Assembly (NCBI GenBank): GCA_030156895.1
Contig: JASGLP010000001.1
Location: 62,001 to 126,000, forward strand
DNA from: Eubacteriaceae bacterium
Lineage (GTDB): Bacteria; Bacillota; Clostridia; Eubacteriales; Eubacteriaceae
DNA: 64,000 nucleotides
Direction of reading: 5' to 3'
Shown here: one piece after another, positions 1,076 to 13,693 of the stretch
Layout of the letters: each line of letters starts with the position of its first letter
Numbering within the stretch: position 1 is the first letter of the stretch
Made by a program: the position numbers and the translations under genes
The notes under the pieces: model-generated
Told to the model about the DNA's origin: nothing
What the model saw: only the letters and a program-made list of their open reading frames with translations
Databases searched by the model: none

Positions 1076-1092
1076 GCGACTAGCGGTCGCAT
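1076..1092 (+). terminator. Hairpin after malic enzyme, left flank of repeat copy A
   Basis: GCGAC-TAGCG-GTCGC lies four bases after the stop codon and has no strong T-tract. A related but degenerate sequence (1277-1291, followed by TTTTT) lies on the other side of repeat copy A. The two are about 9/15 identical and may be the two halves of an old terminator duplication. Confidence 0.5.
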
Positions 1093-1094
1093 TT

Positions 1095-1275
1095 AAACTG
1101 ATAACTAAGTTGTTAAGATTACCTGAGCACCGACAATTGGCTTTTCAGTTGGCTGCATCGGGGCGAACAGTTGCGCCAAAACCTTTATTATTAACATTTA
1201 AAATTGGGCAACTGTACGAAACCGCAGCAGCCTACGAAATCCAATTGGTCGGTGCGGGGTTTATCGATACACTAA
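1095..1275 (+). mobile_element. Terminator-associated hairpin repeat, copy A
   Basis: About 180-bp non-coding element, the most diverged plus-strand copy of a four-copy family (also near 7.6, 8.6 and 12.5 kb). The outer stem pairs GCACCGACAATTGG (1127-1140) with CCAATTGGTCGGTGC (1241-1255). A middle stem pairs GCTGC (1152-1156) with GCAGC (1227-1231). An inner stem pairs CGAACAGTTGC with GCAACTGTACG. It lies between malic enzyme and the convergent Lrp gene, in the same orientation as malic enzyme. Its ends are less well preserved than in the other copies. No coding capacity is credible. It is interpreted as a MITE-like element that may form a structured 3' UTR. Confidence 0.8.
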
Positions 1276-1295
1276 AGCGATCGTCAGCTGCCTTT

Positions 1296-1763
1296 TTATG
1301 ACGTTTTGTCTTCAACTGCCAGTCCGATTCCCCGGTGTTCAACAGACGTGGAAAAGACAATTAGGGTTTTGGTCTGGCCAAACTGTTGGAGATCACCGAT
1401 AAAGGCATCCAGTTCGTGGGTACTAGGAAAACGGACCTCCAGGAGCATGGAATAGTCCCCAGTTACGCAATTACACTCAATGACATTGGGACATTGTTCA
1501 ATATAAGGATAAAAGTCTTTCTTTTGAATCGGTTCGACTTTCAGATTGACAAAAGCTTTAATATGGAAACCCATTTTGATGGGATCAATAACGGCCTGGT
1601 ATTTTTTAATATACTGGGCCTTTTCCAGTTGTTCAATACGGGCAGATACGGCTGGCGATGACAGATAAACCTGAGCCGCCAGTTCTTTGATAGAAATTCG
1701 GGCATCATTTTGTAGAATATTGAGAATTTTTAAGTCGATGGAATCAAGTTCCTTGTTTTTCAT
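1296..1763 (-). CDS. Lrp/AsnC family transcriptional regulator
   Basis: A 155-residue regulator, the usual family length. An N-terminal AsnC-type winged helix (residues about 8-58, with DARISIKELAAQVYLSSPAVSARI) is followed by a RAM/ligand-binding domain (about 70-145, with the CNCVTGDYSMLLEV core). Such proteins form octamers that respond to amino acids or related metabolites. The start ATG sits behind a purine-rich AGGGGGGCC-type site. It is convergent with malic enzyme, so its target is not obvious; autoregulation is common in the family. The stop codon lies at the right flank of repeat copy A. Confidence 0.92.
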   Translation of the reverse strand: MKNKELDSIDLKILNILQNDARISIKELAAQVYLSSPAVSARIEQLEKAQYIKKYQAVIDPIKMGFHIKAFVNLKVEPIQKKDFYPYIEQCPNVIECNCVTGDYSMLLEVRFPSTHELDAFIGDLQQFGQTKTLIVFSTSVEHRGIGLAVEDKTS

Positions 1764-6165: not shown

Positions 6166-7305
6166 ATGAATCCCTTTAATTTTAAAATCCCACAGGAAAT
6201 CATATGTGGAAAAGACTCTATAAAAAAAATCCCGGAAATTTTAAAAAACAATGACCTGCAAAAAGTACTGGTGATCTCCGGTCCACATTTAAATAAAATG
6301 GGTGTCGTTTCCCAAGTGACCGATTTATTAAGCCAGGCTGCTATTGACTTCGCAACTTTTGTGGAAATTGAAGCCAATCCTTCGGTTGAAACCGTCAATG
6401 CGGCGACAAAGGCTTTTCTTGACAGTCAGGCAGATTCTATTATAGCTTTGGGCGGGGGATCGCCCATGGATGTGGCCAAGGCAGTTGGGATTTTGGCTAA
6501 ATTTGGTGGCTCAATCACCGAATACGAGGGCGCTCATAAGGTGCCGGGGCCCATTATCCCTTTAATTGCCATTCCCACTACGGCGGGCACTGGTTCAGAA
6601 GTAACGGCTTTTTCAGTGATTACCGATAAGAGTCGAAATTATAAACTGACGGTTTTCAGCTATGAACTGCTTCCTGCTTATGCCATACTAGAACCCGCCC
6701 TGGTCATGACAACACCTCCAAAAACCGCGGCGGCCTGCGGCATTGATGCCATGGTTCATGCTATCGAGGCGTATTTATCAAAAGCGGCATCCCCCTTTTC
6801 TGATGCCATGGCCGAAAAAGCGTTGACCTTATTAGGAAAAAACATTCGTCCTTTTGTAGCTGATCGCAGCAATGAAGAAGCGGCAGAAGCAATGTTGATC
6901 GGTAGTATGTTTGCCGGAATTGCCTTTGCCTGGGCCAGACTGGGTAATGTTCATGCTATGGCGCATCCCTTAGGCGGTTTCTTTAATGTTCCCCATGGAG
7001 TGGCCAATGCCATTTTACTGCCGGCAGTTCTGGAATACAATGCCCTTTCCGATACTGGCCGTTATGAAAAACTCAATGAGCTGATTTTTGGTCAGACTGA
7101 TCATTTTAAAGGTGCTGATTTTATCAATGCCATTCGTCTGCTGCTAGCAGATCTGGGGATTCCCCAAAATCTGCAAGCCCTTGGTGTAACAAAGGATCTG
7201 ATTCCGGCAATGGCAAAAGATGCCATGAAAAGCGGTAATATTCTGGTTAACCCCAGAACGTCCACCGTTGAAGATATTGAAGCGCTTTATTTAAAAGCTT
7301 TTTAA
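6166..7305 (+). CDS. Iron-containing alcohol dehydrogenase
   Basis: The start is ATG at 6166 behind AAAGGA; the upstream GTG at 6127 has no site. The 379-residue protein is a group III dehydrogenase. The N-terminal NAD(P) domain has ALGGGSPMDVAKA and PTTAGTGSEVT. The C-terminal helical domain carries all four metal ligands: Asp194, His198, His263 and His277 (GIDAMVHAIEAY, NVHAMAHPLGG, VPHGVANAI). It reduces a short aldehyde or semialdehyde to an alcohol, or the reverse. Next to a class III aminotransferase it could handle the semialdehyde formed by transamination. The 11-bp gap to the next gene indicates an operon. Confidence 0.92.
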   Translation: MNPFNFKIPQEIICGKDSIKKIPEILKNNDLQKVLVISGPHLNKMGVVSQVTDLLSQAAIDFATFVEIEANPSVETVNAATKAFLDSQADSIIALGGGSPMDVAKAVGILAKFGGSITEYEGAHKVPGPIIPLIAIPTTAGTGSEVTAFSVITDKSRNYKLTVFSYELLPAYAILEPALVMTTPPKTAAACGIDAMVHAIEAYLSKAASPFSDAMAEKALTLLGKNIRPFVADRSNEEAAEAMLIGSMFAGIAFAWARLGNVHAMAHPLGGFFNVPHGVANAILLPAVLEYNALSDTGRYEKLNELIFGQTDHFKGADFINAIRLLLADLGIPQNLQALGVTKDLIPAMAKDAMKSGNILVNPRTSTVEDIEALYLKAF

Positions 7306-7316
7306 GGGAGGCTCTA

Positions 7317-7559
7317 ATGGAACAAAAAATAAAATTGACGGTCAAATCATCCGGATGCCCTTTTTATGCGGCGGGTGATCAGGTGATCTTTGATGGCCCA
7401 ATACTTGATAAGGAAAAGAGCGGAAATTTTTGCATGATGGCTTTAAATGCCGTGTTTCCTTTCATTTATGCGGCCAGAAAAGGTGTCATCACCGACCAGC
7501 TGCTGCAATGTCCCGATTGCGATGAAAAAGTAACCTTTCTCTTGCAAAAAGCCGAGTAA
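7317..7559 (+). CDS. TIGR04076 family small protein
   Basis: An 80-residue cytoplasmic protein starting 11 bp after the dehydrogenase stop, with GGGAGG upstream. It resembles the TIGR04076 family: SSGCPFYAAGDQVIF near the N-terminus and a CPDCDEKVTF pair of cysteines near the C-terminus. The family is found mostly in anaerobes and has no established function. The three cysteines suggest redox or metal binding. It appears to be the last gene of the operon and is followed directly by repeat copy B. Confidence 0.7.
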   Translation: MEQKIKLTVKSSGCPFYAAGDQVIFDGPILDKEKSGNFCMMALNAVFPFIYAARKGVITDQLLQCPDCDEKVTFLLQKAE

Positions 7560-7563
7560 ACTG

Positions 7564-7590
7564 ACACTGAGCCCATGAAATTCATGGGCT
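7564..7590 (+). terminator. Terminator stem, left duplicate flanking repeat copy B
   Basis: The palindrome AGCCCATGAAATTCATGGGCT is within a 27-bp segment repeated identically at 7769-7795. This left copy has no T-tract (it is followed by CGGACTG), so it should not terminate; the right copy does have the T-run. Confidence 0.85.
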
Positions 7591-7768
7591 CGGACTGAAG
7601 ACAAAGTTAATATTGAATACCCGAGCACCGACAATTGGCTTTTCAGTTGTCCGCCTCGGGGCGAACAGTTGCTGGAAATCGTCAATAATTAGCGATTTCA
7701 AATTGGGCAACTGTACGAATCCGCGCGCGGACTACGAAATCCAATTGGTCGGTGCGGGGTTTATCTAC
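7591..7768 (+). mobile_element. Terminator-associated hairpin repeat, copy B
   Basis: A 178-bp element bounded by an exact 27-bp direct repeat that contains the host terminator stem. The left end CGGACTGAAGACAAAG and the reverse complement of the right end (CAGTGTGTAGACAAAC in the family) form an imperfect ~16-bp terminal inverted repeat. Internally the whole element folds back: outer arms GCACCGACAATTGG/CCAATTGGTCGGTGC, middle arms TCCGC (7650-7654)/GCGGA (7727-7731), inner arms CGAACAGTTGC/GCAACTGTACG, and an apical GAAATCG/CGATTTC stem. It is oriented with the upstream gene. This is the cleanest copy for defining element ends. Confidence 0.88.
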
Positions 7769-7800
7769 ACACTGAGCCCATGAAATTCATGGGCTTTTTT
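7769..7800 (+). terminator. Functional terminator, right duplicate flanking repeat copy B
   Basis: The same 27 bp as 7564-7590, here followed by a run of six to seven T. It is the intact terminator of the upstream operon, so the repeat should be transcribed as part of the 3' UTR. Confidence 0.88.
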
Positions 7801-7908
7801 TGAATTAAAATGAGCATTTGTTTAGACCTTGCAAAAAAATATAAAATACTGGATTTTAAAGCAAAAATCTTATAAAATGTAGGTGATTAAATTAAGAAAG
7901 AGAAATGA

Positions 7909-8550
7909 ATGAAAAAACCTAAACTCAGTAAAAAAATGCTCCTGATTGTTGGTATTGTTCTTTTGATGCTGATCGTTGTGGGCATCATCCTTGTGTTTTT
8001 TGTCTTTAAACCAGGCGACAGTACAGTTGAGGCCAGTGATGAAAGTGTCACCAGCGAAGAGGCGGAAAACTCAGAAATCCCTACGATCGGGCAGGATCAG
8101 TCCTACTACAATTTTTACAATCAAATTGAACTGAATATGAGTAAAGCGGAAGTCAACCAGCGCTTGGGGATGGAACCGATTATGGAAGCGGATGGCTCAT
8201 TCCATTATACCGACATCAACACAGGCTATTCGGTTAATGTTTTCTTTAATGTAAATGATCAGGTCGTTTTAAAGGCACTTATCCCGCCCATTGGCGGCGG
8301 TGATTGGATTGATCTCTGTACCGCGGATGTAAGCCAGAGCCAGGTAGATGGAATTACGGCCGGAATGACCTATCAGGAAGTCAAAAAGCATTTAGGCGGC
8401 GACGGCTTATTAAGAATTGAAATGATTGAAACCGGCACAACAGACCACGTCATTTACGGCCTGGCCTGGATGAATGCCGATTTCTCTTATATACTAGTCT
8501 CCTTTGATGGGGATACCCAAAAAGTAATTGGGTCAATTTATTCTGAGTAA
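7909..8550 (+). CDS. Membrane-anchored protein with two BamE/BLIP-like repeats
   Basis: A 213-residue protein. A basic N-terminus and one long hydrophobic segment (residues about 9-33) are followed by an acidic low-complexity linker and an extracytoplasmic part. That part has two copies of a SmpA/BamE-like repeat: IELNMSKAEVNQRLGME and ITAGMTYQEVKKHLGGDG, as in beta-lactamase-inhibitor-like (BLIP) domains. No lipobox cysteine is seen, so it is probably a signal-anchor protein. Function unknown. It is a single gene between repeat copies B and C. Confidence 0.75.
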   Translation: MKKPKLSKKMLLIVGIVLLMLIVVGIILVFFVFKPGDSTVEASDESVTSEEAENSEIPTIGQDQSYYNFYNQIELNMSKAEVNQRLGMEPIMEADGSFHYTDINTGYSVNVFFNVNDQVVLKALIPPIGGGDWIDLCTADVSQSQVDGITAGMTYQEVKKHLGGDGLLRIEMIETGTTDHVIYGLAWMNADFSYILVSFDGDTQKVIGSIYSE

Positions 8551-8568
8551 CAGGTGCTAAGCACCTGT
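8551..8568 (+). terminator. Terminator stem, left duplicate flanking repeat copy C
   Basis: CAGGTGCTAAGCACCTGT begins at the base after the stop codon. It is one base shorter than the right copy at 8754-8772 and has no T-tract. Confidence 0.85.
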
Positions 8569-8753
8569 CAGACTGAAGACAAGGTTAATTTTGAATACCT
8601 GAGCACCGACAATTGGCTTTTCAGTTGTCCGCCTCGGGGCGAACAGTTGTTGGAAATTGCCTATAATTTGCGATTTCAAATTGGGCAACTGTACGAATCC
8701 GCGCGCGGACTACGAAATCCAATTGGTCGGTGCGGGGTTTGTCTACAAACTGA
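8569..8753 (+). mobile_element. Terminator-associated hairpin repeat, copy C
   Basis: A 185-bp copy nearly identical to copy B in its arms (TCCGC/GCGGA middle stem) but different in the loop. The apical stem reads GAAATTGC/GCGATTTC, so a G-U pair replaces the G-C pair of copy B. The left end is CAGACTGAAGACAAGG; the right end is CTACAAACTGA. It is flanked by two copies of the same terminator stem and oriented with the upstream gene. It separates that gene from convergent ohrR. Confidence 0.88.
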
Positions 8754-8779
8754 CAGGTGCTTAAGCACCTGTTTTTTTG
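8754..8779. terminator. Shared terminator, right duplicate flanking repeat copy C
   Basis: CAGGTGCTTAAGCACCTGT is a perfect palindrome apart from its centre and is followed by TTTTTTT. The last codons and the stop (8761-8763) of the convergent ohrR gene lie inside it, so the palindrome is both coding tail and terminator. Confidence 0.85.
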
Positions 8780-9213
8780 ATGGCGCAAGTGTCTGAATCG
8801 AGGATTTTGTAGAGCAGCTGATAGAGGGTTTGAGCCTCTTCAGGGCTTAAAGGCAGGCAACTGACAATTTGTTCAGGGATTGACAAGGCTTCTTTTTTAA
8901 GTGCTTTGCCGGCATCGGTGAGGGTGATCATAACACTTCTCTCATCTTCTTTTGAGCGCACCCGGACAAGGTAGCCACTTTGTTCCAGACGCTTTAATAA
9001 AGGGGTCAGCGTGCCGGAATCCAGGTAGAGATATTGGCCCAGACTTTTTACGTTGATGGATTCATGTTCCCAGAGAACCATTAGGGTAATATATTGGGTA
9101 TAGGTCAGTCCCAGGCGGTTGAGGAGTGGTTTGTATTGCCTGACAACCTCTTTGGCTGCAGCATACAAGGGGAAACACAGCTGGTTTTTAAGTTTAAGAC
9201 TTTCATCGTTCAT
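8761..9213 (-). CDS. ohrR: OhrR-type MarR family peroxide-sensing repressor
   Basis: The start is ATG at 9213 (AAAGGA upstream); the longer frame to 9264 is untranslated leader. The 150-residue MarR winged-helix protein has an N-terminal NQLCFPLYAAAKEV segment in which Cys13 matches the reactive cysteine of OhrR. A DNA-binding wing with SKEDERSVMITLTDAG follows. OhrR represses organic-peroxide defence until the cysteine is oxidised. It lies 57 bp downstream of the glutathione peroxidase-like gene on the same strand, which it should control along with itself. Its stop codon lies in the palindrome flanking repeat copy C. Confidence 0.85.
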   Translation of the reverse strand: MNDESLKLKNQLCFPLYAAAKEVVRQYKPLLNRLGLTYTQYITLMVLWEHESINVKSLGQYLYLDSGTLTPLLKRLEQSGYLVRVRSKEDERSVMITLTDAGKALKKEALSIPEQIVSCLPLSPEEAQTLYQLLYKILDSDTCAIKKTGA

Positions 9214-12378: not shown

Positions 12379-12418
12379 GACTACCTCGTCTTGTAATAGC
12401 TTTTGAAAACATATAAAA

Positions 12419-12437
12419 GGTGCACTGTTGAGCACCG
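12419..12437 (-). terminator. Terminator of DUF389 gene, distal flank of repeat copy D
   Basis: On the minus strand GGTGCTCAACAGTGCACC is followed by TTTTATAT. It lies beyond repeat copy D and would end the DUF389 transcript after the repeat. The other flank (12621-12631, CGGTGCAGCTC) keeps only part of the stem. Confidence 0.7.
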
Positions 12438-12620
12438 CAGTGTGTAGACAAACCCCGCACCGACCAATTGAATTTCGTAGTCTGCTGCGGTATCGTACAG
12501 TTGCTATTTTAGGAATGGCTAAATATCAACTTTTCTGTGCAACTGTTCGTCCCGATGCAGACAACTGAAAAGCCAATTGTCGGTGCTCAGGTATTCAAAA
12601 TTAACTTTGCCTTCAGTCTG
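12438..12620 (-). mobile_element. Terminator-associated hairpin repeat, copy D
   Basis: A 183-bp minus-strand copy directly after the DUF389 stop codon, again in the sense of the upstream gene. In element orientation the ends are CAGACTGAAGGCAAAG and CTACACACTG. Its middle stem reads TCTGC/GCAGA (plus-strand positions 12557-12561 and 12481-12485), differing from copies A and B at both partners of two pairs. The apical loop has diverged and lost the GAAATC stem. The terminator duplication is incomplete, which suggests an older insertion. Confidence 0.85.
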
Positions 12621-12631
12621 AGCTGCACCGT

Positions 12632-13693
12632 TTAGTTTTTGATCGTGATCACACTTTTGGCGACGCCATCATCATTGACCTGAGCAAAATAGCGATAAAG
12701 GATTTCTCTGATATCCTGGGATATTTGGACAGAATAATCCTCCAGGTCATAATCGTCTTTCGCGGCGATAATTGCGGCTATTTCTTCTTCGGTGTAAAGA
12801 TCACCCATTAAATCGATCTCTAAGGTCTTGTTGTCGGTACTGACAATGGCGCGGATGGTGGTGGTGGAGGCGGTATCAACCTCGGCGTTAATGTAATTTT
12901 CTACCCGGGTGCTGATCATGGTGTTGACAAAAGAGGTATAAGCGGTATATACCGATGAAATTGTCGCCGGCAGGGCGATTAGAATAATACCGACCAGGAT
13001 GGCTTTTTTGATGAAGGCATTATATTTTTGGTAGACACTGAGCTCTGGTCGCAAATTCATGATCTTAACGATTAAAAAAGTAGCTAAAATGATAAAAAAG
13101 GCATTAATTGTAAAGAGATAAGAAGCCCCCAGAATAAAGTCCAGGTTTTGATTGGCGATCCCAAATCCGATGGTGCACATAGGTGGCATCAAGGCAGTGG
13201 CGATGGCGACACCAGGAATAACGTTGGATTTTTCCCGACGGGTGGCACCGATAATCCCGGCTGCGCCGCCAAAAAAAGCGATCAGCATATCGAAGAAAGA
13301 CGGTTCGGTGCGGGCAATCAGTTCGCTGGTGGCAGTATCCAAAGGTGAAAATAAAAAATACAGACTTGAACCAATCAGGGCGATGATGATCTGCAGGCCG
13401 AATTTGACAAAGGCATCGCGCAAAAGAAAACCATCGTAGATGGCGGCACTGTAGCCGATGGTGATAATCGGGTTCATCAGCGGGGAGATCAGCATGGCCC
13501 CAATAATAACAGCCGTTGAGTTGACGTTTAACCCCACAGAGGCAATAATAATGGCGCAAAATAGAATAATTAAAGGCGCCCCGTTTAGCCTGATTCCGGA
13601 AACGATTGAGCCGTGAATTTCTTCCGGATTGAGCTGATCATCTTTAAGATTGTCAATTAGCGAGTTGACTAAATTTAAAAAATATTCTTTCAT
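12632..13693 (-). CDS. DUF389 family membrane protein
   Basis: A 353-residue polytopic protein of the DUF389 (TIGR00341-like) family. About six hydrophobic segments run between residues 38 and 245, with conserved NVNSTAVIIGAMLISPLMNPIITIG-type sequence in the first pair and ALMPPMCTIGFGIA further on. A soluble C-terminal domain follows (about 260-353). Members are widespread but no transport substrate is established. AGGAG lies 6 bases before the ATG. Repeat copy D follows the stop codon. Confidence 0.85.
   Translation of the reverse strand: MKEYFLNLVNSLIDNLKDDQLNPEEIHGSIVSGIRLNGAPLIILFCAIIIASVGLNVNSTAVIIGAMLISPLMNPIITIGYSAAIYDGFLLRDAFVKFGLQIIIALIGSSLYFLFSPLDTATSELIARTEPSFFDMLIAFFGGAAGIIGATRREKSNVIPGVAIATALMPPMCTIGFGIANQNLDFILGASYLFTINAFFIILATFLIVKIMNLRPELSVYQKYNAFIKKAILVGIILIALPATISSVYTAYTSFVNTMISTRVENYINAEVDTASTTTIRAIVSTDNKTLEIDLMGDLYTEEEIAAIIAAKDDYDLEDYSVQISQDIREILYRYFAQVNDDGVAKSVITIKN

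Follow-up and report, generated by a model that had tools for sequence, protein, structure and literature searches.

A short element that recurs throughout the genome of a member of the genus Acetobacterium (3.0 Mb in 101 contigs) is best read as a non-autonomous, non-coding, MITE-like element of the IS1182 transposase family, which is targeted to hairpins and leaves the whole stem-loop duplicated on either side of itself (probability roughly 0.8). Judged from the sequences, whole-hairpin duplication by both this element and a group of full-length insertion sequences (IS) in many Clostridia points to a transposase that would read folded DNA rather than a target sequence.

The copy under study, copy B, lies in a stretch of 64,000 nucleotides (the window). 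Here an ORF of 80 amino acids ends at position 7559 and is followed by a palindrome, a 184-bp element, an identical palindrome and six T. Positions 7564-7590 equal 7769-7795 in an exact 27-bp repeat, the sole direct-repeat family reported within 7300-8100. The first-pass annotation had described an exact 27-bp, terminator-bearing repeat flanking the element, with a T-run kept only at the right copy. Both statements were confirmed, whilst the true duplicated unit was refined to a 21-bp palindrome, AGCCCATGAAATTCATGGGCT. Its left copy, delimited by the repeat search and by the boundaries of other copies, occupies 7570-7590 on the plus strand with no T-run after it, and its right copy, from sequence and repeat search, occupies 7775-7795 (plus strand). 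The six T that complete the terminator, at 7796-7801 (plus strand), are present on the right side only. Between the two stems lies the element itself (7591-7774, plus strand, 184 bp; from sequence, core patterns and flank comparison), with left end CGGACTGAAGACAAAG, a structured core from 7628 and right end TTTATCTACACACTG. The sequence and the boundaries of other copies indicate that the element terminates in ...TCTACACACTG, and thus that ACACTG at 7769-7774 is its own. The exact repeat is 27 bp rather than 21 because these terminal bases match the host ACACTG at 7564-7569 (plus strand). Copy B appears to have no coding capacity, the only mechanically called ORFs overlapping 7591-7774 being of 80 and 56 amino acids. 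Given the absent T-run, it is plausible that the left stem is disabled as a terminator for a co-directional upstream gene, whose transcript might then carry the element as a 3' UTR.

Three further copies are found in the window. The second, also of 184 bp, lies at 8569-8752 on the plus strand (from sequence, core patterns and flank comparison), between a left stem-loop copy ACAGGTGCTAAGCACCTGT at 8550-8568 (plus strand), which is single in the relative G012, and a right stem-loop copy ACAGGTGCTTAAGCACCTGT at 8753-8772 (plus strand) with a T-run after it; both stem-loops were placed by sequence and flank comparison. Core pattern and flank comparison located the other two, whose ends are approximate. 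The third (1076-1300, plus strand, core from 1130) has hairpin-like sequence on both sides by eye and a duplication score of 8, and the fourth (12400-12645, minus strand, core 12452-12583) has a right hairpin and a left remnant by eye and a score of 9; neither score exceeded the control.

Across the genome, patterns for the two halves of the core matched 123 and 121 places (about 100 of the 123 and about 100 of the 121 being among the matches listed), versus zero for the reversed control patterns, and a covariance model of the element gave 132 matches. We collected 103 copies with both core ends, of which 102 had flanks long enough to be compared. The local-alignment score of left against right flank had a median of 15.5 in these 102 copies versus 8 in 2019 swapped pairings, and exceeded the 99th percentile of the swaps (13) in 67 of the 102 versus 18 of the 2019 swaps. 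The flank match was not above control in the remaining 35 of the 102. A genome in which most copies are free of the duplication, as would speak against the first-pass annotation, was thus not what the flanks revealed. The repeated unit differs in sequence from site to site, is mostly a hairpin, and has inner ends that adjoin the element at near-constant positions.

The tails of the duplicated units were compared in 69 clean copies of the 102, under a looser filter that let through lengths up to 58, since a few alignments are spurious. At least five T occurred in the next 8 bases after 35 right copies and 0 left copies, and at least five A of 8 preceded 37 left copies and 0 right copies, although these zeros are partly built in because the element's own ends supply the inner bases. 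Retention of the left A-run, which the first-pass annotation did not mention, is about as frequent as that of the right T-run, and the copied unit is therefore a stem-loop without its tails. The 30 bases flanking the element fold below the 5th percentile of shuffled sequences on the right in 62 of the 102 copies and on the left in 51, with mean predicted stem energies nearly equal across the two sides (-8.2 and -8.4 kcal/mol). Some copies (C57:2690, C18:86891, C50:131279 and others) have left and right stems that differ at both arms with pairing kept, which looks as if the hairpins self-correct or both stand under selection.

Mechanical ORF calls around the 103 copies gave neighbours oriented +/+ in 33, -/- in 19, convergent in 38 and divergent in 6, with 7 incomplete. 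The orientations being mixed, the element would be antisense in many places. As a rule, a 3'UTR element in sense only is unsupported by these ORF calls, with 33 sense versus 19 antisense tandem contexts.

Two orthologous sites in the sister genome G012 are informative as empty sites. The orthologue of 8550-8772 contains one ACAGGTG...CACCTGT terminator with a T-run and no element, and the orthologue of the copy at C50:131279 contains one terminator, AGCTGTCCGG...CCGGACAGCT, again with the element absent. Therefore, insertion at these sites came later and created the second hairpin. For the copy at C50:132873, no recognisable orthologous terminator was found in G012. At the copy B locus, inspection by eye of ten relatives showed nine with a single, sequence-unrelated terminator after the same gene, the terminator being truncated in G006; by sequence, the terminators of these relatives are not orthologues of that at copy B. 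In G004 and G006, past the orthologue of the window gene at 7317-7559, a longer related repeat (GTACCGACCAATTGTTAATCTGTTG...) stands directly behind the terminator region (L220, L221).

Autonomous IS of the IS1182 family show the same behaviour. Matches to IS1182 transposases were found in 17 of the 19 genomes of the genus, and lie above the curated cut-off in 10. The transposases of L249/L267, L271 and L316 scored 362.5, 375.1 and 390.1 bits with the IS1182 model NF033551 (cut-off 270), and L249 and L271 also carry DUF772 and DDE_Tnp_1_6 above cut-off. L249, from genus member G015, has a transposase with 100% protein identity to that of A. wieringae DSM 1911 (NZ_LKEU01000033.1) at the same contig position, and it is by this match that the genus is taken to be Acetobacterium. 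Both L249 and L233 have ends that start CAGACTGTCAAAAAAG and a duplicated hairpin on their flanks. A scan of genome contigs for transposases of the L249 type returned 195 relatives, of which 80 were kept and 73 examined, the other seven of the 80 fetched loci being cut by contig ends. In 43 of the 73 loci, mostly of 1480-1600 bp, terminal inverted repeats CAGACTGTCAAA/TTTGACAGTCTG with no more than 2 mismatches at either end enclose one transposase gene, whilst 30 had one or both ends unrecognisable. Among the 43 two-ended IS the flank match exceeded the 99th percentile of 1806 swaps in 35, and the repeat abuts both ends within one base in 34. In Chakrabartyella piscis all nine of nine IS copies sit in nine different hairpins, every one of which is duplicated. 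Outside the duplication, T-runs occur in 18 of 33 IS and A-runs in 15 of 33, with about equal frequency, and the orientation of the IS relative to transcription therefore appears free.

The length and position of the duplication were measured in 34 IS (score of at least 11, with the repeat no more than one base away from either end) and in 47 strictly bounded elements of the 102. For the IS, the centre of the duplication falls within 0.5 nt of the dyad of the stem in 33 of the 34, exactly on it in 30, compared with 13% within one base in randomly shifted controls, and the duplications are 18-41 bp long. For the element, whose duplications are 16-33 long, the centre lies within 1 nt of the dyad in 43 of the 47 versus a fraction of 0.11 in randomly shifted controls; the four off-dyad cases lie at -1.5 (two), -9.5 and -19 nt. 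This symmetry is not made by the method, because the two ends of an IS set the two inner boundaries independently. When the stem search was allowed to pair A- and T-tracts too, stems overran the duplication, and the overhangs were equal and opposite in 30 of 33 IS. Lengths that vary and remain centred on the dyad mean that the duplication tracks the hairpin and has no fixed stagger. Taken together, the flank matches in 67 of the 102 copies, the empty sites, the IS set and the dyad centring bear out the proposal of the first-pass annotation that terminator hairpins are the target of integration and that the entire stem is duplicated.

Eight of the 43 IS had flanks that did not match above control (L294, L301, L306, L307, L313, L319, L327 and L331). 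In L294, L301 and L306 the hairpin on one side is, by eye, unrelated to the one on the other, a pattern expected from recombination between copies. L317, which is counted among the 35 above control, is not a duplication, its flanks being exact reverse complements over 45 bases, which places the IS at the apex of a long palindrome that it leaves unduplicated. When the flanks of four further loci of the IS1182 group with ends GGGACCTGTGAAAAAG or close to it (L260, L235, L234 and L238) are rejoined into a hairpin, the IS lies at its apex or nearby. In L260 and L235 a 7-bp direct repeat in the loop abuts both ends, perhaps a duplication of the loop alone; these are single cases, and that repeat length is also reached by chance in swapped flanks. 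L250, again a single case, is an IS1182-type IS between hairpin arms GGCCGGAAT/ATTCCGGCC with no direct repeat, and is replacement-like. Replacement of the stem-loop, as in IS1272, was considered for this IS clade and for the element and is not what was found, given an abutting duplication in 34 of the 43 IS and flank duplication in 67 of the 102 elements.

The argument is weakest where it ties the element to the IS. The two share their target and their type of duplication. In a second (sister) subfamily of the element, the left end CAGACTGTCAAAAAAG is exact over 16 bases in 8 of 34 copies and within 2 mismatches in 17 of 34, and this end is the end of the A. wieringae IS. Flank match was above control in 15 of the 34 second-subfamily copies and, in the sister species, in 17 of 40 fetched copies, with 23 of the 40 not exceeding it. 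In the window's own genome the left end, CAGACTGAAGACAAAG, shares 12 of 16 bases with the IS end, with only the first 7 in an unbroken row, and the resemblance is lower still at the right ends. That genome, which is 85% complete, yielded no IS with this end, and its IS1182 hits are weak (best E 2.3e-6). A search for an autonomous copy there left three of 59 left-end places away from known copies, and these proved to be variants of the element, remnants of it, or a copy interrupted at the end of a contig. Of the 19 genus genomes only 5 contain close relatives of the transposase, in one of them free of an internal stop or split; the element occurs in all 19.

We propose that transposition would target the palindrome of an intrinsic terminator, which is probably in an extruded cruciform or folded hairpin state, and that the two 3' ends of the element may be joined at the two 5' feet of the stem-loops on opposite strands. 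Gap filling would then copy the entire stem-loop to either side, whilst the outer A-run or T-run would be left uncopied, giving one tailed terminator distal to the element. Such joining at the stem feet followed by gap filling would produce a duplication that equals the stem-loop in length and has the dyad at its centre. An IS1182-type transposase would presumably move the element in trans. A wider reading, which we offer tentatively and regard as rather less probable than its opposite, is that a branch of IS1182 transposases recognises a folded hairpin (cruciform), the size of which dictates how long the duplication is, and that in Acetobacterium species a structured, RNA-like element has in this way entered from a few to more than 100 terminators per genome. 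Each insertion would leave a tailed terminator behind the element, which would thereby travel as a ready-made and tolerated 3'UTR module under selection for an RNA-level function.

Other origins for the double stems were weighed. The IS1182-like ends of the element could be convergent, with movement owed to another enzyme that duplicates hairpins, such as a group IIC intron-type reverse transcriptase or an integrase resembling Cas1. The own genome is without a close IS1182 transposase of the hairpin-duplicating clade, the core has a conserved RNA-like fold, and the duplication of CRISPR repeats by Cas1 offers an analogy for copying a whole hairpin. We nonetheless consider this unlikely, since the element and the IS insert in an identical mode, the 16-nt left end is identical to that of the IS in 8 of 34 sister-subfamily copies, and Rfam gave no match over 7300-9000 apart from an insignificant one to StyR-143. 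An ordinary DDE transposon with a long fixed stagger and a preference for terminators, similar to IS1202, would include the stem by coincidence. Duplications of about 24-29 bp are made by IS1202 and terminators are common targets, but lengths ranging over 18-41 (IS) and 16-33 (element), together with dyad centring in 33 of 34 and 43 of 47, make this explanation improbable.

Least credible of all is an element that is now immobile, in which selection for tandem terminators round a regulatory RNA maintained or produced the double stems, with later homogenisation of the flanks. Such selection would fit left and right stems that often differ by pairing-preserving changes, and mean stem energies that are alike on both sides (-8.2 and -8.4 kcal/mol). 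Against it, every site has a different hairpin, two orthologous element-free sites carry one hairpin, and IS that bear a transposase show the identical pattern. Insertion of an IS1182-type, MITE-like element into hairpins remains the preferred reading.

Most transposons leave a target duplication of fixed length, equal to the distance between two cuts in straight DNA, and those of MITEs are usually short and of fixed length. The present element is like bacterial MITEs in being short, non-coding and many-copy, with one end in common with an IS in the sister subfamily; unlike the usual MITEs, it duplicates whole terminator stems and has a conserved and structured core. Cas1-Cas2 also copies a whole, often palindromic, unit to both sides of its insert, namely the CRISPR repeat, at a fixed locus and with a length set by a ruler. 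The duplication of a whole unit is thus shared with the element and the IS, whilst the enzyme family differs. REP elements mobilised by RAYT (Y1 transposase) insert without target duplication, and the duplication found here speaks against such an identity.

Hairpin targeting by members of IS1182 is already known, since it is described for several of them (PMC4923244, PMC5678879, PMC3098183). In the passages available from two of these papers, TnSha1 and IS1272 of staphylococci, both of the IS1182 family, enter hairpins without a consensus, several of them confirmed terminators, and one hairpin target can be hit in either orientation; the hairpin is partly deleted or replaced and target duplication is absent (PMC4923244, PMC5678879). 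By that account they resemble the present IS in transposase and target and differ in the lack of a whole stem-loop duplication. The 2017 paper on IS1272 does draw joining at the 5' feet, which may duplicate the full stem-loop, as a hypothetical pathway b (legend to Fig 13, PMC5678879). Of the pathways drawn there, L260 and L235 resemble c and L250 resembles a, each as a single case. For ISCbo5/ISBma2, also of the IS1182 family, all sites but one were gene-end hairpins, described as likely transcription stop signals (PMC3098183). The passages of that paper seen describe the surrounding hairpin, leave duplication unstated and contain no analysis of dyad or length.

In the literature searched, which was mostly open-access and had ISfinder/TnPedia outside it, no report was found describing either the Acetobacterium repeat or an IS1182 member that duplicates a whole hairpin. 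Nor did that literature yield a precedent for natural whole-hairpin duplication in which the hairpin sets the length, or for the structured element bearing it. The insertions of IS and element show in nature what the IS1272 authors could present only as a drawing. As the length of the duplication varies about two-fold with the hairpin, a structure-reading transposase becomes directly testable. Moreover, terminators would be a safe landing place, where genes need not break and a terminator remains at the far end.

The conserved folded core raises the separate question of a 3'UTR function in acetogens. The core is a single long stem with internal loops, for which RNAalifold predicted 39 pairs over 84 copies, 7 of them changed on both sides. 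The sister-subfamily core folds alike and by eye shows further double changes (GCACC/GGTGC to GTACC/GGTAC, CGG/CCG to CAA/TTG), whilst the loop strands GCGAAC and TACGAA are unchanged between the subfamilies. On the plus strand, G-U outnumbers A-C at paired columns by 36 versus 11 cells (15 versus 8 pair positions), and by 7 versus 2 cells in the second subfamily. This excess hints at selection at the RNA level and is suggestive only, because the cells share ancestry. The element model matched all 19 genomes of the genus, with 5 to 132 matches each, and 3 of 21 further genomes of the family, two of one genus and one marginal. An Rfam search over 7300-9000, which covers two copies, returned only the insignificant StyR-143 match (22.1 bits versus a gathering threshold of 176, E 0.081). 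Lastly, some copies in the own genome (among them C16:9380, C51:763, C33:4121 and C82:26586) contain modular insertions within the core with the outer stem kept; the inserts are a structured module of about 82 nt, GGCAACGAGCCAA...TTGGCGACTGCC, and a short CCCAAGGGGGCAGACCCTCC-like insert, both located inside the stem.
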